From contig NC_014363.1 of the NCBI RefSeq assembly GCF_000143845.1, positions 357,186-421,185 of the forward strand: a stretch of 64,000 bases of DNA, in the 5' to 3' direction. The notes beneath the pieces are model-generated. The model was not told the DNA's origin and made no database searches. It saw nothing but the letters and a program-made list of their open reading frames with translations. Shown piece by piece: positions 3,176 through 24,610 of the stretch; position 1 is the first letter of the stretch, and every line of letters begins with the position of its first letter. Position numbers and translations under genes: made by a program. The DNA is from Olsenella uli DSM 7084. GTDB lineage: Bacteria; Actinomycetota; Coriobacteriia; Coriobacteriales; Atopobiaceae.

Positions 3176-4267
3176 ATGAGCGAGTTCTGTCTCAAGGCGA
3201 GGCTCTTCTTCGGAGCCCAGGCCGTGGAGCACCTGCAGTCCCTTTCCTGCTCGAACGTCCTCGTGATCACTGACGGCTTCCTTCAGGAGTCCGGAATGGT
3301 GAGCAAGATGACGCAGCACCTGCCCGCCCGGGCACATGTGAGCGTGTATTCCAACATCAAGCCCGACCCCAGCCAGGAGCTGGTCGACGCGGGCGTCGAG
3401 ATGATATGCGACGCCAGGCCGGACCTCGTGATCGCGTTCGGAGGGGGGTCGTGCATCGATGCCACCAAGGCGATCCTGTACTTCGCGGGCGAGAGGGGCA
3501 TGGAGCGTCCCTACTTCCTGGCCATCCCCACCACGGCAGGGACGGGGTCCGAGGTCACCAACTTCGCGGTCATCACCCGCGGGAACACCAAGGTCGCCCT
3601 GATCGACGACGTCCTCGTCCCCGACGGCGCCCTGCTCGACGCGAGCTTCACGCGTTCCGTCCCACCCAAGATCACCGCCGATACCGGTCTGGACGTCCTC
3701 ACCCATGCGCTCGAGGCGTACGTGAGCAACAATGCCTCGACCTTCACCGATGCCCTCGCCGTCAAGGCCCTGCGCATCGTGTTCGAGGACCTGCCGGTTG
3801 TCTTCAGGGACGGCGACGCCATGAGGGCGCGCGGACGCATGGCAGAGGCGTCCTGCGTTGCCGGCATTGCCTTCACCAATGCCGGCCTGGGTATAAACCA
3901 TAGCCTCGCCCATGCCCTGGGTGGGCGCTTCCACGTTGCCCACGGACGCCTGAACGCCGTCCTCCTGCCCTATGTCATGCGCTTCCACATGGCCGAAGCA
4001 AAGTATCGCGGCCCCTACGAGAGGCTGGCGCACGAGCTTGGCATGGACGGTGCCGATGAGCTCCTCCGGCGAGTGATCGACCTGCGCCACGAGCTGGACA
4101 TCGAGGAGCGGCTTGCGGATCTCGGGAGCATCGAGGCAGGGAGCTTCGAGGAGCACGTGGGGGAGATGGCCGAGGCCGCGATCCATGACCGCTGCACCCC
4201 CACCAACCCGCGTCCAGTGTCGAAGCAGGACCTCGTCAACCTCTATCGCGACGCCTACAGCGGCTAG
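3176..4267 (+). CDS. pduQ: Iron-containing alcohol dehydrogenase, PduQ/EutG-like
   Basis: The 363-residue protein is a group III (Fe) alcohol dehydrogenase. Visible features are the NAD-binding GGGS near residue 89, PTTAGTGSEVTNFAV near 120, and metal-ligand regions GLDVLTHALEAY and HSLAHALGGRFHVAHG. Its N-terminus (FCLKARLFFGAQAV) resembles PduQ, which reduces aldehydes to alcohols inside metabolosomes and recycles NADH. Position between a MerR regulator and EutS-type shell genes supports such a role. No aldehyde dehydrogenase is present in the window, so the aldehyde source is unknown. The symbol is by resemblance only. Confidence 0.8.
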   Translation: MSEFCLKARLFFGAQAVEHLQSLSCSNVLVITDGFLQESGMVSKMTQHLPARAHVSVYSNIKPDPSQELVDAGVEMICDARPDLVIAFGGGSCIDATKAILYFAGERGMERPYFLAIPTTAGTGSEVTNFAVITRGNTKVALIDDVLVPDGALLDASFTRSVPPKITADTGLDVLTHALEAYVSNNASTFTDALAVKALRIVFEDLPVVFRDGDAMRARGRMAEASCVAGIAFTNAGLGINHSLAHALGGRFHVAHGRLNAVLLPYVMRFHMAEAKYRGPYERLAHELGMDGADELLRRVIDLRHELDIEERLADLGSIEAGSFEEHVGEMAEAAIHDRCTPTNPRPVSKQDLVNLYRDAYSG

Positions 4268-4434
4268 TCGGCGCGCCGTCCCCGCAGGCGTGCCTCGGGG
4301 TTACGCAAGCGCACGGCCAAGGTGGCCGCCCCTCTCGTCGCATGAGCGCCCATGGCGCCCCTGGCGATGAAGGATGGCCGTCCGTCGGGCGAGGTCTTGA
4401 CACTGACAGGACGTAATCATCTAGAAAGGGCAGT

Positions 4435-8195: not shown

Positions 8196-8801
8196 CTATG
8201 CCTCGATGAGGTAGGCGTTTACGATCTCGCCGAAGTACATGATGTGCTCGTCCTTGTTCGAGCCGGTCGCGCGACCGTCGACGTCCTGCGGGTAGTAGCT
8301 GGCCTGGATCTCGGGCGGGTAGAGCGCAAGCTCCTGTTCCTGGCGGTAGACGACCTTGCACTCCAGCGTCAGCGGAAGCTCTGCGATGCCGGGAACGGAC
8401 ACCACATCGGAGTCCACGAGCGTGAGGCCTGCCAGTGCGACCTTGTCGACCTCGTCCCCACGCATGCTTCCACAGATGCCCAGGGCCTTGCGCGCAGCCT
8501 CGCGCGTGCGTGCGGCCCGGTTCTCCCCGCTGGCACCCGCGGCCGCGCCTGCATCCGCGATCGCAGGCACGTTGATGGTGAACTCGGGGTTCTCGTCCAG
8601 CAGCGTGACGGTCGAGCGGTGCTTGCGCACGTAGGCGACAAAGACGGGCCGTCCCCAGTTGGTGCCCAGCGTGCCCCACGCGATGGTCATGGAGTTGACC
8701 TTCTCGCCGGCCTTCGAGGTGAGCAGGACCCCCTTGGGAATGGCCTTGACGATCTCGTCGGCGTAGTCGCTGATGTCGTCGATGTGGCGCTTGCCTGCCA
8801 T
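8196..8801 (-). CDS. Flavin reductase family (FMN-binding split barrel)
   Basis: The 201-residue protein matches the flavin reductase-like domain: MAGKRHIDD, SKAGEKVNSMTIAWGTLG, RPVFVAYVRKHRSTVTLLDE and FTINVP are typical of its FMN-binding barrel. Such proteins reduce flavins or act as FMN-dependent oxidoreductases in anaerobes. The ATG at 8801 is preceded by AAAGGGG. The downstream NUDIX gene is on the same strand. Confidence 0.85.
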   Translation of the reverse strand: MAGKRHIDDISDYADEIVKAIPKGVLLTSKAGEKVNSMTIAWGTLGTNWGRPVFVAYVRKHRSTVTLLDENPEFTINVPAIADAGAAAGASGENRAARTREAARKALGICGSMRGDEVDKVALAGLTLVDSDVVSVPGIAELPLTLECKVVYRQEQELALYPPEIQASYYPQDVDGRATGSNKDEHIMYFGEIVNAYLIEA

Positions 8802-9191
8802 GATGGTGCCCCTTTCGTGTGACGTGCGCGCCGCGCCTGCCGACCCTTTCCCGCAGACGCCTCGGGAACGTGGTCATGTGCCAGATGGCATAGGCGTAGA
8901 CGAGGTTGCTGAACAGCTCGATGGATGCGGCGTGCCTCTCCCTCGACTGCATGCGACCTTTTCTGCGATTGGTGACATTGTCAACCCAAACCTTGGTTCG
9001 GAGTCAAGCGTCGCGAAAAAACAGGCTTATGGCAGCGAGACGGGCGTGGGTGGATGCAAACATCGAGCCGGGACGCTCCTTCGCGGATGACATGGGGGCC
9101 TGTGCTGTGTTTATACGATATTGCATATTTTAATAATTAACATAATTTGAGAAAATTGAATACAATGTGAGGAGAATAGAGGGGAACGTCT
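8802..9191. other. 390-bp spacer with AT-rich promoter region
   Basis: The left part carries a short LtrA-like fragment on the minus strand (8865-8952). The right part, 9108-9165, is strikingly AT-rich compared with its surroundings and leads directly into the AAA ATPase gene, so it probably holds that gene's promoter. No other gene is seen. Confidence 0.5.
8865..8952 (-). pseudogene. Possible N-terminal remnant of an LtrA-like membrane protein
   Basis: From an ATG at 8952 the minus strand reads ASIELFSNLVYAYAIWHMT, which resembles the first transmembrane helix of low-temperature-requirement A proteins (ELFFDLVFVYAI). Similarity stops after about 28 codons and the frame then runs into the flavin reductase region. 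It may be gene debris. Confidence 0.35.
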
Positions 9192-17832: not shown

Positions 17833-18501
17833 CTAGTCGCCCAGGTTCTTGTTGTAGAGCCTGACCTTGCCGCCCACGTTGGCGTAGAGGGAGACCTTGT
17901 TGTCGGCGTCGAGCGCGCCCCAGATCTTGTCTGCTGCGGGCAGTGCGACCTCGACGGGCTCGCCGGAAAAGCTCGGCAGCGGGTTGCCGTCTCCCTGGTA
18001 GGTGCTGATGAAGTAGCCCGTTCTCGCATCTGCTCCCTCGTAGGCGAAGAACTCCCGCACGCAGCGGTCGCTCGCTGCGGGGTCGTTGCCCCCCTGGCGC
18101 TTGAGGAGGGAGAGCTCGAAGCTGCCGTCGGCCTGGACGATGGCGCTGATGCGCGGCGTAAAGTTGGGCGAATCCGGCTCGTAGCTACGCTCCATGCAGC
18201 CGGCGTGCAAGCTGCCCCGCTCGACGATGGTGTCCGTCTGGTCGCCGTTGGTCACCACGAGGGCGTCGCCCATGGCGCGCACAGGGTGGTAGATGATGAG
18301 GCTTGGGTCCTCGAGCCGGGATGGGTCGTGGGCCTCGGTGCGGATGCCGTCCTCGGTGGCCACGAACACGCGGTTCCTGCTGTTGGAGCTGCGTCCCATG
18401 ATCCAGTAGTACACCGCAGGCCTGCCGCTGCGGTCGGTGCCCACCACGATGCCGCGGCCGGGATAGGGGTTGGTGCGGAGGAGCTCGAGCAGGTCCTGCA
18501 T
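17833..18501 (-). CDS. purO: IMP cyclohydrolase, PurO type
   Basis: The 222-residue protein resembles PurO-type IMP cyclohydrolases (YPGRGIVVGTDRSGRPAVYYW, RSSNSRNRVF, NGDQTDTIVERG, NFTPRISA), first known from archaea. It would close FAICAR to IMP. The ATG at 18501 follows AGAGGAAGG; an upstream Met at 18636 is in frame but lies in the promoter. Gene pairing with a PurH lacking its cyclohydrolase domain makes the assignment strong. Its first 17 codons and 179 bp upstream are duplicated at 22912-23143. Confidence 0.88.
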   Translation of the reverse strand: MQDLLELLRTNPYPGRGIVVGTDRSGRPAVYYWIMGRSSNSRNRVFVATEDGIRTEAHDPSRLEDPSLIIYHPVRAMGDALVVTNGDQTDTIVERGSLHAGCMERSYEPDSPNFTPRISAIVQADGSFELSLLKRQGGNDPAASDRCVREFFAYEGADARTGYFISTYQGDGNPLPSFSGEPVEVALPAADKIWGALDADNKVSLYANVGGKVRLYNKNLGD

Positions 18502-18680
18502 GGCCTTCCTCTCTCGTGCGGCGCACTCGCGCGGGGCCTGCCACAAAGGGGCGAGGCAGCCCGCGAGAGACGCGCATGCCCAGACGGTCGGCATATCGTT
18601 TGCTCGCGCCGCTCCCCCGTGGTAGCCCACGATCATCCGTCAGTAGCAGCGCGCCCTTGTCGGCCCCAGTGTAGCGTGCG
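18449..18680. repeat. 232-bp direct repeat, left copy
   Basis: This stretch covers the first 17-18 codons of purO and its upstream region. By eye it is identical over all 232 bases to 22912-23143 (offset 4463). The match begins at ATGCCGCGGCCGGG and ends at GTGTAGCGTGCG; the flanking bases differ on both sides. Confidence 0.95.
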
Positions 18681-18915
18681 CGTCTGTCCTGGTAGCCTGC
18701 CGCCGCCTGCGATACAGGAAGCACACACCCCGCCCTTCTTGCGATACGTGATGGGCGGGACCTTGGCAGGTGCTGGCGAAGATGGGGCGACAATCACGCG
18801 CAAAGGAATGGCGCAGCCCGTGCCGTCCCTCCACAGCCGAGCTCCCCCCATCTGTTAGGTGACGGCAAGATGGGATACTGGCTGGGTCTGTTGTCATCGA
18901 ATGCTTCGTCAGCTT
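18681..18915. other. Left border of inserted cassette, no gene seen
   Basis: These bases follow the left repeat copy and precede the stop of the HTH regulator. Both strands give only unconvincing frames. No terminator or promoter was identified. Confidence 0.4.
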
Positions 18916-19482
18916 TTATGGAATCCAAGGATATCCCTGGATGGTGACGAGGACCTTGCGACCATCCGCCTCGCTGCGATTGGCGCATCTTTTGCACCAT
19001 CGGTCGACGACTGCGGAGAGCTCGTCGCCCATGCTCCTTGCCTCTTCGGGAGTCATGCGCAGAACGGAGTCGAAACCGACCTCGCAGCGCATCCATTCCT
19101 CACCAATCTCCGCACAGGCGCTCAGGTAGCGTGAATATGCCTCTGCATACGAGCGGGCCGTCGCTTGTCGTAGGCCAACCTGCACATCGCGAGAGGTGTC
19201 GTCCTTGGCCCCGCCGTCAATCAGGGTTGCTGCGCTCGTCGCCTGCCACCAGCTCTGTCGCTTGTCGGCGTGCTTCTCGTCTAGCTTCTCCGCCAGGCCC
19301 ACTTCGGCAAGGCGTCGCAGGTGATAGCTCGCGCTCCCGGGGGCGAGGCCTATGGCCTCGCAGATTTCACCGACCGTCTGCTCTCCCTGGTTGCGCAAGA
19401 GGGCGAGGACTCTCATACGGTCGGGGTTAGAGAGTACTCTCAGCGAACTGAGGTCCGTGATTCGTTCTACGCCTTCTCTCAT
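18916..19482 (-). CDS. ArsR-like winged-helix repressor of the peptide cassette
   Basis: The 188-residue protein has an ArsR-type wHTH near the start (LRVLSNPDRMRVLALL, TVGEICEAIGLAPGSASYHLRRLAEVGL) followed by an alpha-helical region without obvious metal ligands. A GTG at 19506 would add eight residues; the ATG at 19482 has GGGGG before it. It is divergent from the methyltransferase-peptide-ThiF-MFS operon, and the shared 134-bp region holds a palindrome over the likely promoter, so it is probably the cassette's regulator. What it senses is unknown. Confidence 0.8.
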   Translation of the reverse strand: MREGVERITDLSSLRVLSNPDRMRVLALLRNQGEQTVGEICEAIGLAPGSASYHLRRLAEVGLAEKLDEKHADKRQSWWQATSAATLIDGGAKDDTSRDVQVGLRQATARSYAEAYSRYLSACAEIGEEWMRCEVGFDSVLRMTPEEARSMGDELSAVVDRWCKRCANRSEADGRKVLVTIQGYPWIP

Positions 19483-19544
19483 GCTGCCCCCACGTCTTCG
19501 TTTCACTGCATCCCGCGTCTGTTTAATTATGCAACCTAAGATTG

Positions 19545-19584
19545 TTGACTTTTTAACAACAAGTATTGTACAATAAATGTTAAA
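19545..19584 (+). promoter_or_regulatory. Promoter with palindromic operator for peptide operon
   Basis: TTGACT (19545-19550) and TACAAT (19569-19574), 18 bp apart, form a good sigma-70-type promoter. The perfect palindrome TATTGTACAATA (19564-19575) overlaps the -10 box, and a wider pair TTTAACA/TGTTAAA (19552-19558, 19578-19584) encloses it. This is where a repressor would act. Confidence 0.65.
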
Positions 19585-19616
19585 TAAAAATCTCGCATAA
19601 AAGAGGTGCGATACTA

Positions 19617-20411
19617 ATGGAAGTGGGCTGCGCTGATCCTTACGAACTTTTTTCTTCCGTATATGATTCCTTCAAAGCTGATGACAATTATTCAGAACTC
19701 TATTCAATCCTAAAGGGTATTCGAGCACAGTGCTCGTTTCCGTTAACATGCCCGTTGGCATGGGACGTTGGCACGGGAACTGGACTCTTCGCGGAGCTGC
19801 TCGCCAAAGATGGCTATGTGACAACGGCAACGGATATCTGCCCCACAATGATTGAACAGGCAAAAATGCGATGCTCTTCGGTAAGGTATTCCGTCGCTGA
19901 TGCTAGAGAGGAGCATCCGGCTGAGAGCTACTTTGATTTGGTGACGGCGATAGATGATGTCTTCAATTGCATTGATAGCCTTTCCGGATTACGGGCAATT
20001 TTCAAGAACATCCATCTTGCCTTGAAGGGCGGCGGTCTCTTTCAATTCGACCTGGTTTGCAAGAAGGCTTTTTTGGAGTACATGGGTTCCGTGCAGTTTC
20101 GCGGAAATGAGTCCGTGAAGTTTCTCTCTTATCCGTCCTCGCCAGCGAGGGACGAGGAACATCAATTCAGCATGGGGGTTTTCACGCTCAGAAGAAGCGC
20201 CAGTAAGAATTCATGGTATCCGACCTTGGTGGAGTTCAAAGAGTATTACTACGAACCTCAGACGGTATATAGAGAGCTTCAACATGTGGGGTTTGAGTTC
20301 GTTCGCGTTGATGCTCTTGGGGACGAGGGACTGATTGAGAACTACTCACCTTGTCTTGGTGAGTCAGCGAATAAGATTCTTTTTTTATGCCGGAAGGGGG
20401 GTGCGCTATGA
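19617..20411 (+). CDS. Class I SAM-dependent methyltransferase of peptide cassette
   Basis: The 264-residue protein has the SAM-binding motif I VGTGTG (residues 51-56), TATDICPTMIEQAK (motif II) and FDLVTAIDDVFNCI (motif IV region). Its base composition is clearly more AT-rich than most neighbours, suggesting transfer. It starts behind AGAGGTG and its stop overlaps the start of the 19-codon peptide gene (ATGA at 20408-20411). In this context it could methylate the peptide or its modification, or transfer another part of SAM as MccD is thought to do in microcin C synthesis; sequence alone does not decide. Confidence 0.85.
   Translation: MEVGCADPYELFSSVYDSFKADDNYSELYSILKGIRAQCSFPLTCPLAWDVGTGTGLFAELLAKDGYVTTATDICPTMIEQAKMRCSSVRYSVADAREEHPAESYFDLVTAIDDVFNCIDSLSGLRAIFKNIHLALKGGGLFQFDLVCKKAFLEYMGSVQFRGNESVKFLSYPSSPARDEEHQFSMGVFTLRRSASKNSWYPTLVEFKEYYYEPQTVYRELQHVGFEFVRVDALGDEGLIENYSPCLGESANKILFLCRKGGAL
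20392..20401 (+). promoter_or_regulatory. Very strong ribosome-binding site for the peptide gene
   Basis: GGAAGGGGGG lies six bases before the ATG at 20408, inside the last codons of the methyltransferase gene. This is among the best Shine-Dalgarno sequences in the cassette and is the main evidence that the short frame is translated, probably at high level. Confidence 0.7.
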
Positions 20412-20467
20412 CTATCGAGAAGGACGAGAAGAAGGTTCAGGCTTCCGAGATCATCAAGAACATCTAG
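20408..20467 (+). CDS. Candidate precursor peptide, 19 residues
   Basis: The frame encodes MTIEKDEKKVQASEIIKNI and stops with TAG. It overlaps the methyltransferase stop by four bases, has a strong ribosome-binding site, and is followed after five bases by a perfect GC hairpin and then by a ThiF/MccB-like adenylating enzyme. Position, size and the hairpin mirror mccA of microcin C operons, where a seven-residue peptide ending in Asn is adenylated. Here the last residue is Ile and Asn is next to last, so either the chemistry differs or the peptide is trimmed. No known family matches by eye. Confidence 0.65.
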   Translation: MTIEKDEKKVQASEIIKNI

Positions 20468-20472
20468 TGGGT

Positions 20473-20498
20473 TGCGAGGGGGGCTTGCCCCCCTCGCA
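20473..20498 (+). terminator. Perfect hairpin between peptide gene and ThiF gene (attenuator)
   Basis: TGCGAGGGGGG (20473-20483), loop CTTG, CCCCCCTCGCA (20488-20498) is a perfect 11-bp stem five bases after the peptide stop. No T-tract follows, so it could act as a partial terminator or RNA-stabilising element that keeps peptide mRNA in excess over enzyme mRNA. In microcin C operons a hairpin at the same place between mccA and mccB has that role. Confidence 0.75.
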
Positions 20499-20519
20499 TC
20501 GTTGATTGCTGAGGCTGCA

Positions 20520-21557
20520 ATGAAGCGATTGAGGTCGGGCGTTGATTACTTTGAATCGTGTGATAAAACGCGACTTGTGATATTTCCGACCTTCGGAAAG
20601 CATTCATATTCAATCCCATCACCGTACGGTGAGGCGCTGCGGGTTCTTGATTGCCTGTCGGATAGGAGGCGTGGAGACGGTGGAGATGACGCTGACTTGC
20701 AAGGTCTTTTGGGCAACGTTGAGCTGTCTGACTTTGTAAATTACCTAGATGATGAAGGGTTGCTGATTGACGAATCCTGCGAGATGGGATTGAGCGATGA
20801 GGCAAGGACGCGCTTTTGTCGGCAGATGGCTTATTTCGAGCAATCGAGTGCTTTTCCGGATAACGTTGAAACTCTTCAGTTAAACCTTGGGAAAAGGAGC
20901 GTAGCTGTCGTTGGCTGTGGCGGAGTCGGCGCACCTGTTGCCGAGTTACTCTCTGCCACGGGCGTTGGACGAATCTTGCTAATTGACGATGATGTAGTTG
21001 AGCTAGGCAACTTGGGGCGCCAGATTGCCTATTCAGAGCAAGATATTGGTGTACCCAAGGTTTCTGCTCTGGCAAAGAGGATAGGCCTTATCAATCCACA
21101 GACCTCTGTGACCGTTATGCAGGAGCGGATAGACGTCGAGAACTATGCGAGGCTTTTGTTAGAGAGTGACTTTGTTGTAGTAGGTGCAGATACCCCTATG
21201 CCAGAACTGCTCTATTGGCTTGATGACCTTGTGGACAAGAGGGGCATTGCCTACATTTGCATGAGCAATTGTCCACCCGTGTTTCGTGTCGGTCCAGTCT
21301 TTGCCCAGCCTGGCGGCATGCGTTACAAGGCGTACCACGAACGGCTGGAGACTAAGTGGCGGGATGCCGCACGGTACGAGTGCTACTCGAATACCGCACA
21401 GGCGAGCAAGGTCACAACGGTTTGGGTGTGCTATGCCGCGGCCGCCATTTCGGTCGGGAACATCGTGCAGTATCTGTTGACCGGCAATTGTGCTCTACTT
21501 GGCCAAGCGTATCTATTCGATATGGAATCGCTCTCGGGCTGGTGGGGAACGGGATGA
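20520..21557 (+). CDS. ThiF/E1-like adenylating enzyme, MccB-like
   Basis: The 345-residue protein has an N-terminal ~90-residue segment (possible peptide-clamp domain) and a ThiF/E1 domain: GCGGVG (132-137), ILLIDDD (152-158), NLGRQIAYSEQDIG (164-177), Lys180 and Asp224. Length and these motifs parallel E. coli MccB (about 350 residues), which joins AMP to the C-terminus of a short peptide. Unlike MccB it has no pair of CxxC zinc motifs in its C-terminal part. The ATG at 20520 is chosen because an upstream Met (20472) lies in the hairpin. Its stop overlaps the MFS start (ATGA). Codon use is less GC-rich than flanking genes. Confidence 0.85.
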   Translation: MKRLRSGVDYFESCDKTRLVIFPTFGKHSYSIPSPYGEALRVLDCLSDRRRGDGGDDADLQGLLGNVELSDFVNYLDDEGLLIDESCEMGLSDEARTRFCRQMAYFEQSSAFPDNVETLQLNLGKRSVAVVGCGGVGAPVAELLSATGVGRILLIDDDVVELGNLGRQIAYSEQDIGVPKVSALAKRIGLINPQTSVTVMQERIDVENYARLLLESDFVVVGADTPMPELLYWLDDLVDKRGIAYICMSNCPPVFRVGPVFAQPGGMRYKAYHERLETKWRDAARYECYSNTAQASKVTTVWVCYAAAAISVGNIVQYLLTGNCALLGQAYLFDMESLSGWWGTG

Positions 21558-22753
21558 TTCAGTCCTCGTTGAGAGGGAATGGCCCTCGCGGGGCGTTCCT
21601 CGTTTCCTACGGGATGGGAGTGGTTGCTGACCAGGTCTTCTATGTGGCGCTCTCCTGGTATGCCCTTGTGGCGACGGACTCGGACATCGCCACCGGGGCA
21701 ATCGTGTCCCTAGGTGCGCTCCCTCGAGCTCTGTTGCTCCTGCCGGGAGGGATGCTCGCTGATCGGCTTGGTCACCGAGTCTCCTCTGTCATCTCGGGGC
21801 TTGTCCGTGCGGCGGTTCTCGCCGTCGCCGCGGCCTTGTGCGGCGCCTCGGGCCCCTCCGTGGCGGCGCTTTCGGCCATGGCCGTCGCCTTTGGGGCAAT
21901 AGAGGCGCTCTACCTGCCGGGAACGCAAAGCATTGTCGCCGACGTGGCCGCCCCGGACGAGCTGGAGCGAACCCAGGGACTCTTCTCGGCCGTGCAGAAA
22001 GCCGGCACCGTTCTTGCGCCGGCCCTTGCTGGATGGGCAGTGCGTGTCCTCGAGCCACGAACGCTGCTGTGGTGCGTGTGCCTGATCGCCCTTGCGTCCA
22101 GCCTGACCCTCGCCGTCGGACCGCGCCGTGAGGAGGCCGTTGGCGGCCCTGTGCCGCAGGTTTCGACCCGAGCGGCTCTCGGTGGCATCCTGCGCGACCC
22201 GGTGATCGCGAGGTGCCTTGCCCTTATCTTGGTCGCCGAGTTCGCCGCTGCGGGCATCACGGGGACGGGCTATGCGCTCCTTTCGGCGCAGAAGGGGTGG
22301 GATGCCGCCCAGATGGGCTCCGTGCTCTCCTTGTACGGTGCCGGGGCGGCGGTGTCGGCGCTTGCCGTTGCGGCCGCGCGGCCGAGAAGGACGTCTGCCT
22401 GGATTGGCTCCTCAACCGCAGTGTGTGGCGTGGCCTTTGCCGTCTCGGGGGTGTCTGGCTTGCCTGCCGCCCGCTTCGCTGCGCTTGTGGCGGGGCTGGG
22501 CGGCGGCGTCTCCTCGACCCTGCTCTTGGCGACCTATCTGTCACGCATCAGAGACGGGCTGGTTGCGACCGCGCTCTCGGTCATGAGCCTGGCGGCCTTC
22601 GGAACTACATCGCTCTCATACGTGCTGTTTGGTGCAGTGTCGTCCAGCACGACGCCCTCGGTCGCGTTTGCCGTCTTTGGCTGCGCGCTCGCCGCAAGCG
22701 GCCTTGCATTCTGGAAGTCGACCGCGACCCTCGGTCGCGGCACCCACCGATAG
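21554..22753 (+). CDS. MFS exporter of the peptide cassette (MccC-like role)
   Basis: The 399-residue protein is a major facilitator with about 12 hydrophobic segments and the loop 2-3 motif GGMLADRLGHRVSS. It resembles drug or peptide-antibiotic efflux pumps of the MFS_3 type. It overlaps the ThiF-like gene by four bases, so both are translated together. In microcin C operons the MFS protein MccC exports the product and protects the producer; that is the inferred role. The gene is more GC-rich than the two genes before it. Its 3' end contains a perfect 8-bp hairpin (22732-22750). Confidence 0.88.
   Translation: MIQSSLRGNGPRGAFLVSYGMGVVADQVFYVALSWYALVATDSDIATGAIVSLGALPRALLLLPGGMLADRLGHRVSSVISGLVRAAVLAVAAALCGASGPSVAALSAMAVAFGAIEALYLPGTQSIVADVAAPDELERTQGLFSAVQKAGTVLAPALAGWAVRVLEPRTLLWCVCLIALASSLTLAVGPRREEAVGGPVPQVSTRAALGGILRDPVIARCLALILVAEFAAAGITGTGYALLSAQKGWDAAQMGSVLSLYGAGAAVSALAVAAARPRRTSAWIGSSTAVCGVAFAVSGVSGLPAARFAALVAGLGGGVSSTLLLATYLSRIRDGLVATALSVMSLAAFGTTSLSYVLFGAVSSSTTPSVAFAVFGCALAASGLAFWKSTATLGRGTHR
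22732..22750 (+). terminator. Hairpin at 3' end of MFS gene
   Basis: CCGCGACC, loop CTC, GGTCGCGG lies within the last codons of the exporter gene. It may stop or process the operon transcript. Confidence 0.4.
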
Positions 22754-22814
22754 GAGAGTGCAACTCCGTCGCCCATCCGCCGTGTGATGATGAGATGGGA
22801 TATTCACTTCATTT

Positions 22815-22912
22815 ATAGCCATATCGGGTATGCCCTTTTGGGCGACCAGCTCCATCTCGTCGCGCGTGAGGTGGTCGGCGCTGACATCAAGGAGGTCCGA
22901 GAGCTGGAGTAA
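22815..22912 (-). pseudogene. C-terminal fragment of an XRE-type regulator
   Basis: Read on the minus strand from 22912, the sequence encodes LLQLSDLLDVSADHLTRDE, which is typical of the end of a Cro/CI helix-turn-helix domain and the start of its linker. The 5' part is absent: the frame is cut exactly at the border of the right 232-bp repeat. Confidence 0.5.
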
Positions 22913-23143
22913 TGCCGCGGCCGGGATAGGGGTTGGTGCGGAGGAGCTCGAGCAGGTCCTGCATGGCCTTCCTCTCTCGTGCGGCGCACTCGCGCGGGGC
23001 CTGCCACAAAGGGGCGAGGCAGCCCGCGAGAGACGCGCATGCCCAGACGGTCGGCATATCGTTTGCTCGCGCCGCTCCCCCGTGGTAGCCCACGATCATC
23101 CGTCAGTAGCAGCGCGCCCTTGTCGGCCCCAGTGTAGCGTGCG
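22912..23143. repeat. 232-bp direct repeat, right copy
   Basis: Identical by eye to 18449-18680. It contains a second ATG and the first 17-18 codons of purO, which here run into the XRE fragment and stop soon after, so it cannot make PurO. Confidence 0.95.
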
Positions 23144-23188
23144 AGCCATGCCGGCGTCCTGCTCGCTGATGGAGACGAGCAGGTTCAT
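23101..23188 (-). pseudogene. Truncated start of an unknown gene at repeat border
   Basis: An ATG at 23188 with AGGAAG before it starts MNLLVSISEQDAGMA. After these 15 codons the frame enters the right 232-bp repeat and ends at a stop about 15 codons later. It lies 42 bases after the stop of the LytTR pseudogene, where the partner kinase of such a regulator often begins, so it may be what remains of one. Confidence 0.45.
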
Positions 23189-23229
23189 AAGAACTTCCTG
23201 CCCTCGGTGGGTGTCATCACGGTGGCCGC

Positions 23230-23730
23230 CTAGATAGTCCTGTCCACGAAGCCGGCAAGTCGTTCGAGCGCGGGCTTGCGCTGGGAGCGGCTGAAGAAGA
23301 TCTCCGAGCCGTCCACCATCACGACTGCCCCTTGGCGTATGTGCACGACCTGGGCCATGTTGACGATGTGGCTGGCAGACGTCTTGACGAAGCCCTTGTC
23401 GCCCAGCTCGGCCGCAGTCCTGCTCAGGGTTCCCCGCAAGCGCAGGGGCTCGTCCTCGCCGAGCAGGTGGTAGTGGAGGTCATGCTTGGAGATGTCTACG
23501 TAGACAACGTCCGCAGCTCCTCGGCTGCCTCCGTCCCGTTGATGCCGGGGAGCGCTATGTCCATGAAGATGAGGTCGGCCGTGCGCTGCGAGTTCATGAA
23601 CTCCACGGCGGTGGACAGCACCTCGACCGAGAAGGACGTGCCCTTCTCGGTCGCATAGCGTGCCAGATGGGCGCGCAGCCTGTCAGCCTCCGCGGGGGGA
23701 GTCCTCGACCATGAGAATGCGATATGCCAT
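23230..23730 (-). pseudogene. LytTR-type response regulator, broken
   Basis: Pieces of one gene lie in different frames. An ATG at 23730 (after AAGGAAG) gives MAYRILMVEDS; then, after a frameshift, a receiver domain follows (LRAHLARYATEKGTS, DLIFMDIALPGINGTEAAEEL). The rest of the receiver is missing, and after a second frame change a LytTR DNA-binding tail appears (GFVKTSASHIVNM, VMVDGSEIFFSRSQR) ending at 23230. About 60-70 codons are deleted between the parts. The intact protein would have been an AgrA/LytR-like regulator of about 240 residues. Confidence 0.75.
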
Positions 23731-23812
23731 GCGACTTCCTTGGCCCCATGGTAGCTCAGGCCGAGCGGCGGCACGGGCCGCCGAATATGCCTATGCCTGG
23801 GGTGCCAGGAGG

Positions 23813-24430
23813 CTACCTCAGCGTGGGGTCATAGGCGCGGGCGTATTGCGTGAACAGGCGGTCGAAGAAGTAGGTGACGCCGAAGGTGGCGTATATCCGA
23901 TGGAGCGCGCCGCCCTCCTCCGCCCCATCGCCGATGCGCAGGACGTCACCGAAGAGGGCGTGCAGCTCATCGTCACGACTGGCGGTGAGGACGACCTTCT
24001 GGGCGCCGGAGCGCCCGATGAGCTCGCGCTGCCGACGTGCGAAGCCGTTGGAGGTCGTGACCACGATCAGGAGGTCGGAGGGACCAAGCGCACGGATGCC
24101 GTTGACCTCGGTGCTGTTTTCGGAGACCAAGCGGACGACCTTGCCCTCTGAGAGCATGGCCTGCTGGAACTCGCGCAGTGCGAGGACGGACGACTCCGTC
24201 GCGAAGATGACGATGTGGGAGCTCTCTCCCATGCGGGAGATGAGGTCTGCCATGTCGAGCCCGTCGGCTAGCTTGTCGATGATGGCGTATATCTCCCCCA
24301 GATCAGCCCTGAGCTGGCGACCCTCGTCGCGCTCCGCCCTCACGTAAGTGAGGTAGTGCTGTCGCAGCGCCGCGCGCTCGCCCTCGGTCAGCGTGCTCTT
24401 GGGAGTGATGTCGAAGCCAATCTCGCTCAT
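23813..24430 (-). CDS. SIS-domain protein (RpiR-like without HTH)
   Basis: The 205-residue protein contains a sugar-isomerase (SIS) fold: SSHIVIFATESSVLALREFQ, DLLIVVTTSNGFARRQREL and KVVLTASRDDE. RpiR regulators normally have an N-terminal helix-turn-helix of about 75 residues before this domain; here only about 70 residues of helical, non-HTH-like sequence precede it. The ATG at 24430 is preceded by GAGGTG. It may bind a phosphosugar; whether it binds DNA is doubtful. Confidence 0.7.
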   Translation of the reverse strand: MSEIGFDITPKSTLTEGERAALRQHYLTYVRAERDEGRQLRADLGEIYAIIDKLADGLDMADLISRMGESSHIVIFATESSVLALREFQQAMLSEGKVVRLVSENSTEVNGIRALGPSDLLIVVTTSNGFARRQRELIGRSGAQKVVLTASRDDELHALFGDVLRIGDGAEEGGALHRIYATFGVTYFFDRLFTQYARAYDPTLR

Positions 24431-24610
24431 GGGCACCTCGCTTTGGTTGCTGGGACCTGCTGCAAGTCTACTACTGCCTCGCCCTCCAGGCCTCCAAGGG
24501 AAGCCCGCTGCGTGGGGGCCCTGTGGTTGGCTCGTCGGAAGGCATCGGCAGCATCGTTTTGGGCATAAACTAGCGCGGATGGCTCCAGCCCGTTCACCCA
24601 AGGAGGACCC

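Follow-up and report, generated by a model that had tools for sequence, protein, structure and literature searches.

The closest described relatives of the locus considered here are small RiPP clusters built around a ThiF-like enzyme. In the microcin C system (MccA/MccB/MccC), a short precursor gene lies beside an adenylating enzyme that joins a RiPP recognition element (RRE) to a ThiF domain, together with an exporter, and MccB modifies the C-terminal Asn of the precursor. The enterofaecin (EnfA/EnfB) and Ind (IndA/IndF) systems are likewise small clusters with an exporter and a short precursor; according to the main text of the two reports concerned, their substrates end in an Ile that is activated by the ThiF-like enzyme (PMC12250964, PMC12150305). 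Pantocin A depends on a related enzyme, PaaA. A different kind of comparison is offered by gene-end genomic islands, which are bordered on both sides by direct repeats of the end of a host gene and leave that gene whole. Homology-assisted illegitimate insertion has been discussed for other bacteria (PMC2884548), and the formation of duplications has also been treated (PMC3784515).

A stretch of 64,000 nucleotides from Olsenella uli DSM 7084 (contig NC_014363.1, positions 357,186 to 421,185; hereafter the window) contains an insert bordered by two copies of a direct repeat next to purO (Table 1). Judged by its predicted products, the insert appears to be a ThiF-type RiPP cassette, with a regulator, a methyltransferase, a precursor, an RRE-ThiF enzyme and a major facilitator superfamily (MFS) exporter. 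It was probably acquired horizontally and inserted beside purO without an integrase, duplicating 232 bp of the purO 5' region in the process. The methyltransferase and ThiF genes have a GC content of 48-52%, against 65% for the window, which would fit a horizontal origin.

Table 1. Features of the cassette and its borders (coordinates in the window)
Feature	Position	Strand	Basis and remarks
purO, IMP cyclohydrolase, intact, 222 aa	17833..18501	-	PF07826, 2e-46; open frame from 18501
Repeat copy 1: 5' region of intact purO, from the -10 element through the ZTP riboswitch leader and the start codon to codon 18	18449..18680	-	232/232 identity; leaders of 17 relatives aligned
ZTP (ZMP/ZTP, pfl) riboswitch aptamer, copy 1	18571..18657	-	RF01750, 57.5 bits
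Cassette left margin, no recognised gene	18681..18915		Six-frame translation inspected
ArsR-type winged-helix regulator	18916..19506	-	PF12840 / PF01022; divergent from the operon; orthologue (38% identity) likewise divergent from the methyltransferase gene in Olsenella sp. KGMB02461
Likely operon promoter, TTGACT-18-TACAAT	19545..19574	+	Consensus match; AT-rich (32% GC) divergent region
SAM-dependent methyltransferase	19617..20411	+	PF13649, 5.3e-13
Precursor peptide MTIEKDEKKVQASEIIKNI, 19 aa	20408..20467	+	ATG overlaps the methyltransferase stop; orthologue at the same place in Olsenella sp. KGMB02461
Hairpin after precursor gene	20465..20512	+	z -3.9; possible attenuator or mRNA-end stabiliser
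RRE-ThiF adenylating enzyme, MccB/PaaA-like	20520..21557	+	PF00899; profile and Foldseek matches
MFS exporter	21557..22753	+	PF07690, 2.8e-27; start codon uncertain, perhaps overlapping the stop of the ThiF gene
Cassette right margin, with possible minus-strand remains of a helix-turn-helix gene	22754..22911		By eye
Repeat copy 2: second purO promoter, riboswitch and 5' end	22912..23143	-	232/232 identity; same purO frame from 22964, stop after 25 aa
ZTP riboswitch aptamer, copy 2	23034..23120	-	RF01750, 57.5 bits; directed antisense into the MFS gene at its 3' end

The ThiF protein gives its best profile matches to MccB (1.6e-31) and PaaA (2.8e-24), and the same two enzymes head the Foldseek matches of its predicted structure, aligning over the full length with a high rmsd. 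Its N-terminal extension is predicted to form three strands and three helices, of which the RRE part is modelled with low confidence (pLDDT below 65). The model thus points to a ThiF domain preceded by an RRE, the arrangement expected of a TLAT RiPP cluster. The conserved Arg, Lys and Asp residues for ATP and Mg binding that belong to such clusters also appear to be present, as no variation is seen at K180 and D224, and hardly any at R167, among 13 homologues. The residues printed for EnfB in PMC12250964 are R167, K180 and D225, a likeness of residue numbers and not of an alignment. A further TLAT feature, a short precursor gene beside the enzyme that is conserved in a relative, is provided by peptides of 19 and 20 aa that share the C-terminus EIIKNI; the precursor and its predicted chemistry are drawn from these two sequences, that of O. 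uli and that of Olsenella sp. KGMB02461. By analogy with IndF and EnfB, the substrates of which end in an Ile activated by the ThiF-like enzyme as described in the main text of PMC12150305 and PMC12250964, the cassette enzyme should adenylate the C-terminal carboxylate, namely the Ile of EIIKNI, which would then be attacked by an internal nucleophile. With no Trp in the core, the candidate nucleophiles are Lys17 and Asn18, and Lys17 is the best guess.

Microcin C provides the best profile and fold match and the same grouping of a short precursor gene with an exporter and an adenylating enzyme of the RRE-ThiF type; however, both cassette precursors end in Ile and not in the Asn that MccB modifies, the cassette has no MccD/E/F-like immunity gene, and the gene before that of the precursor encodes a methyltransferase. 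Enterofaecin and Ind share the C-terminal Ile, the short precursor and the small exporter-containing cluster, whereas the cassette core lacks Trp (EIIKNI versus WWIVI or NWYFI), and neither the (V/I)RKA leader motif nor the peptidase gene of those systems, as described in the two reports, is present. PaaA is the second best match by both profile and fold, a likeness judged from the enzyme alone; unlike PaaA, the cassette enzyme is partnered by a methyltransferase, and its precursor ends in EIIKNI. Since the cassette belongs to neither the microcin C nor the enterofaecin/Ind class, it is placed as a new variety of ThiF-type RiPP cassette. The core EIIKNI falls outside all groups described in the main text of PMC12250964 and PMC12150305, and an unnamed network cluster there may include the cassette.

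In a search of 397 genomes from the order, Olsenella sp. KGMB02461 (locus L179) was the only other one to encode a protein closely related to the ThiF enzyme. The earlier note had treated the insert as one functional block, and this view is borne out by the second species, which carries counterparts of the five genes in an unchanged order, with identities to the O. uli proteins of 38% (ArsR), 32% (methyltransferase), 37% (ThiF) and 34% (MFS). Its precursor, MDFIKEIEKQVNPAEIIKNI, has its last six residues, EIIKNI, in common with MTIEKDEKKVQASEIIKNI. A strong hairpin of unrelated sequence follows the precursor gene at the same place (z -4.0, compared with -3.9 in O. uli) and is succeeded by U5; a hairpin at this position in both species is as expected if the precursor mRNA must exceed the enzyme mRNA. 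In both species the precursor stop is followed by TAG TGG and then x-A-R codons (W V A R and W N A R; 20465-20480 and L179:7353-7340), which may be chance. Two inverted repeats, TTGTTGACTTTTTAACAACAA and TATTGTACAATA, overlap the putative O. uli operon promoter. This promoter is a consensus match only, since one promoter-like site was found in the divergent region against 1.6 expected by shuffling. At the other end of the cassette, the minus-strand translation of 22754-22911 resembles, by eye only, the tail of a helix-turn-helix protein (DLLDVSADHLTRDE), and this stretch has no DNA match outside its own locus among 140 family genomes.

The second cassette occupies a different locus. It lies between direct repeats of 123 nt that are 88% identical (L179:4829-4951 and 8913-9035), one of them formed by the 3' terminus of a HIT-family gene that is intact, the other a second, non-coding copy. 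In a sister species (G028), the single HIT gene is joined directly to the sequence that follows the second copy in KGMB02461, and no flanking repeat is found at the site; this HIT locus is an empty single-copy site. The parallel scar and its empty counterpart indicate that the repeats are insertion scars that leave the host gene whole. Differences between the two HIT copies are unevenly placed, 12 of the 15 falling within the first 37 nt (p 3e-5), and 11 of these 12 are G to A or C to T. Decay together with gene conversion, or a chimeric junction, could produce such a pattern; no single simple route explains it. The HIT gene beside the cassette (L179:4404-4952) is also present, without a cassette, in the sister species, and HIT family members can confer resistance to microcin C-like compounds, as stated in the main text of PMC12250964.

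In O. uli, pairwise alignment of 18449-18680 with 22912-23143 gives 232 identical bases of 232, and the match extends by 0 bases on either side. No third copy is found by a search of the whole 2,051,896-bp genome. In a 464-kb sample of the same genome, made up of the 64-kb window and 20 segments of 20 kb each, the exact direct repeat that comes next in length, with copies at most 20 kb apart, measures 48 bp, and random sequence would be expected to yield exact repeats of about 16-21 bp; the 232-bp repeat is far above the genome background. Other direct repeats of O. uli, of 68-93 bp and 94-96% identity, lie at L196:2731-2861 and 8474-8573 and at L204:6732-6824 and 8473-8565. The agreement over 232 bases between differing flanks, claimed in the earlier note, is thus exact, and so is its reading of one copy as part of purO and the other as purO debris, the frame being intact over 222 aa in the first and stopping after 25 aa in the second. 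The same note judged that the duplication looked recent. The sole basis for that statement is the absence of differences (0 of 232; 95% upper bound of divergence about 1.3%), and identical copies could also be maintained by gene conversion. Its attribution of the repeat to purO stands, although it overlooked that purO leader with a ZTP riboswitch makes up about 179 of the 232 bp. It is extremely improbable that the repeat is an artefact of assembly. Apart from perfect identity nothing speaks for this, whereas both flanks and the insert are unique sequence and the type-strain genome was finished with 454 reads, a paired-end library of about 9.3 kb, Illumina data and Sanger gap closure (PMC3035265), so that paired ends exceed the insert and reads approach the repeat in length.

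The repeat runs on the minus strand from just upstream of the purO -10 element (TACACT), through the riboswitch, to codon 18 of purO, and both aptamers pass the RF01750 covariance-model cut-off (57.5 bits against a gathering score of 39). When the leader is aligned with those of purO in 17 family members, the riboswitch and the -10 element are seen to be kept and nothing is conserved further upstream, so that the edge of the repeat lies close to the edge of conservation. For the same reason, conservation does not decide which flank originally adjoined purO. In one of the relatives (G036), about 140 bp separate the riboswitch from a homologue of 23826-24431 on its upstream side, which suggests that copy 2 borders the native side. 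When purO neighbourhoods in relatives are compared, as the earlier note had proposed, a single purO control region is found at the 17 aligned loci, all from other genera, and it is from these genera that insertion at the O. uli purO would follow. The gene itself has stayed whole under its own switch, and a promoter bearing a riboswitch has been duplicated as a by-product. Beside copy 2, a LytTR-type response-regulator gene (23230-23774) is an apparent pseudogene, with a frame shift near its start and about 85 middle residues absent relative to L136 and L138. The adjoining stretch 23144-23230 was considered as serine-recombinase debris and as a histidine-kinase start, and both readings were rejected: O. 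uli has no PF00239 match and the stretch follows the response-regulator pseudogene, and the kinases beside homologous regulators have different N-termini.

The cassette appears to be rare. A scan of 84,980 species returned at least 80 loci, and among the matches listed the cassette occurs elsewhere only at L052, which belongs to the KGMB02461 genome. ThiF relatives in the sampled phylum are core ThiF matches only, plasmids yielded remote ThiF or methyltransferase matches and no cassette, phages gave no cassette match, and viral contigs gave none at useful identity. Other ThiF clusters of the family (L217-L222) have no flanking repeats comparable to those of the cassette. One of them, in G039 (L217:5091-8063), is a different ThiF gene in a neighbourhood of its own, between UvrA-like and histidine genes, without flanking repeats. 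The same genome has a direct repeat without mismatches, at least 300 nt long and with a spacing of 2393 (L219:1697-1996 and 4090-4389), near two other ThiF matches and not flanking them.

Under the favoured explanation, a horizontally acquired cassette that carried no integrase would have entered next to purO, and the insertion would have duplicated the purO -10 element, the ZTP riboswitch and the first 18 codons, keeping purO whole under its switch and leaving the truncated second copy at the far end. Neither cassette includes an integrase gene, no Phage_integrase match lies within 100 kb of either (the nearest are at a distance of about 120 kb in O. uli and, within the same contig, more than 700 kb in KGMB02461), and no resolvase match occurs in O. 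uli. Because in both cases the host gene is whole, one gene end is duplicated and there is no integrase, the favoured mechanism is insertion by the host's own recombination or repair. The route may have been RecA-type homologous recombination combined with illegitimate joining, or break repair; single crossover, staggered-break fill-in and homology-assisted illegitimate insertion all give the observed layout and fit it equally well. Among these specific forms, a Campbell-type event, the model that the earlier note thought simplest, is a tentative candidate. In it, a circle bearing both the cassette and 232 bp of purO would have undergone a single crossover with the chromosomal purO. Such an event would yield exactly such repeats with a full-length gene at one end, and the layout at HIT is the same. 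Nevertheless, a circle would first have had to capture purO sequence identical to that of the host, and another circle HIT sequence in another species, neither cassette has a replication or mobilisation gene, and the cassette is on no plasmid or phage record searched. A staggered break that was then repaired, or incoming linear DNA that recombined illegitimately with the help of homology, is possible to a similar degree, the 232-bp target being copied at both ends. The donor would need no purO sequence, two independent insertions with different duplications (232 and 123 nt) would require no prior gene capture, and a cassette without a recombinase is accommodated; however, duplications of such length are not usual, and no microhomology was found at the joints.

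It is unlikely that the cassette is an integrative element of gene ends, with the repeats as attL and attR and a recombinase acting in trans or since lost. Placement at a gene end with the host gene whole in both species is typical of such elements, and occupied and empty gene-end sites are seen at HIT, where KGMB02461 is compared with its sister species, the comparison at purO being with other genera only. However, neither cassette carries a site-specific recombinase of its own or has one nearby, the duplication is unusually long for a gene-end island, the O. uli repeat comprises a 5' end together with its promoter and riboswitch, and the insertion sites of the two species are not alike. Rearrangement in place, with the cassette already upstream of purO and the control region duplicated later by unequal exchange, is quite improbable: although the region is decayed, with a response-regulator pseudogene beside copy 2, a tandem duplication would have repeated cassette sequence too, barring further deletion, and the parallel case in KGMB02461 would be left unexplained.

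Once inserted by the host's recombination or repair, as is favoured here, the cassette would work as follows. The ArsR-type regulator likely represses the divergent operon; the leader of the 19-aa precursor would be bound by the RRE of the ThiF-like enzyme, which would adenylate the C-terminal Ile so that an internal nucleophile or amine could close a ring or amide; the methyltransferase may modify the peptide further, and the MFS protein would export the product. RecA recombination between the 232-bp copies would excise a circle of 4463 bp and restore a single purO control region, and such excision is plausible and expected in principle.

The two loci might represent a class of small mobile biosynthetic cassettes without a recombinase, which insert repeatedly at gene ends, duplicate 0.1-0.25 kb so that the neighbouring gene survives, and are able to leave via the copies; a class of this kind is a speculative prospect with a small chance of being correct. 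ThiF-type RiPP enzymes keep giving new ring chemistry, and the cassette is a compact cluster of this type in an oral bacterium. Its layout in two species, together with the empty site in a third, offers a concrete case of how a small biosynthetic cassette lacking its own recombinase may spread and be lost, and of a riboswitch-bearing promoter duplicated as a by-product of insertion.
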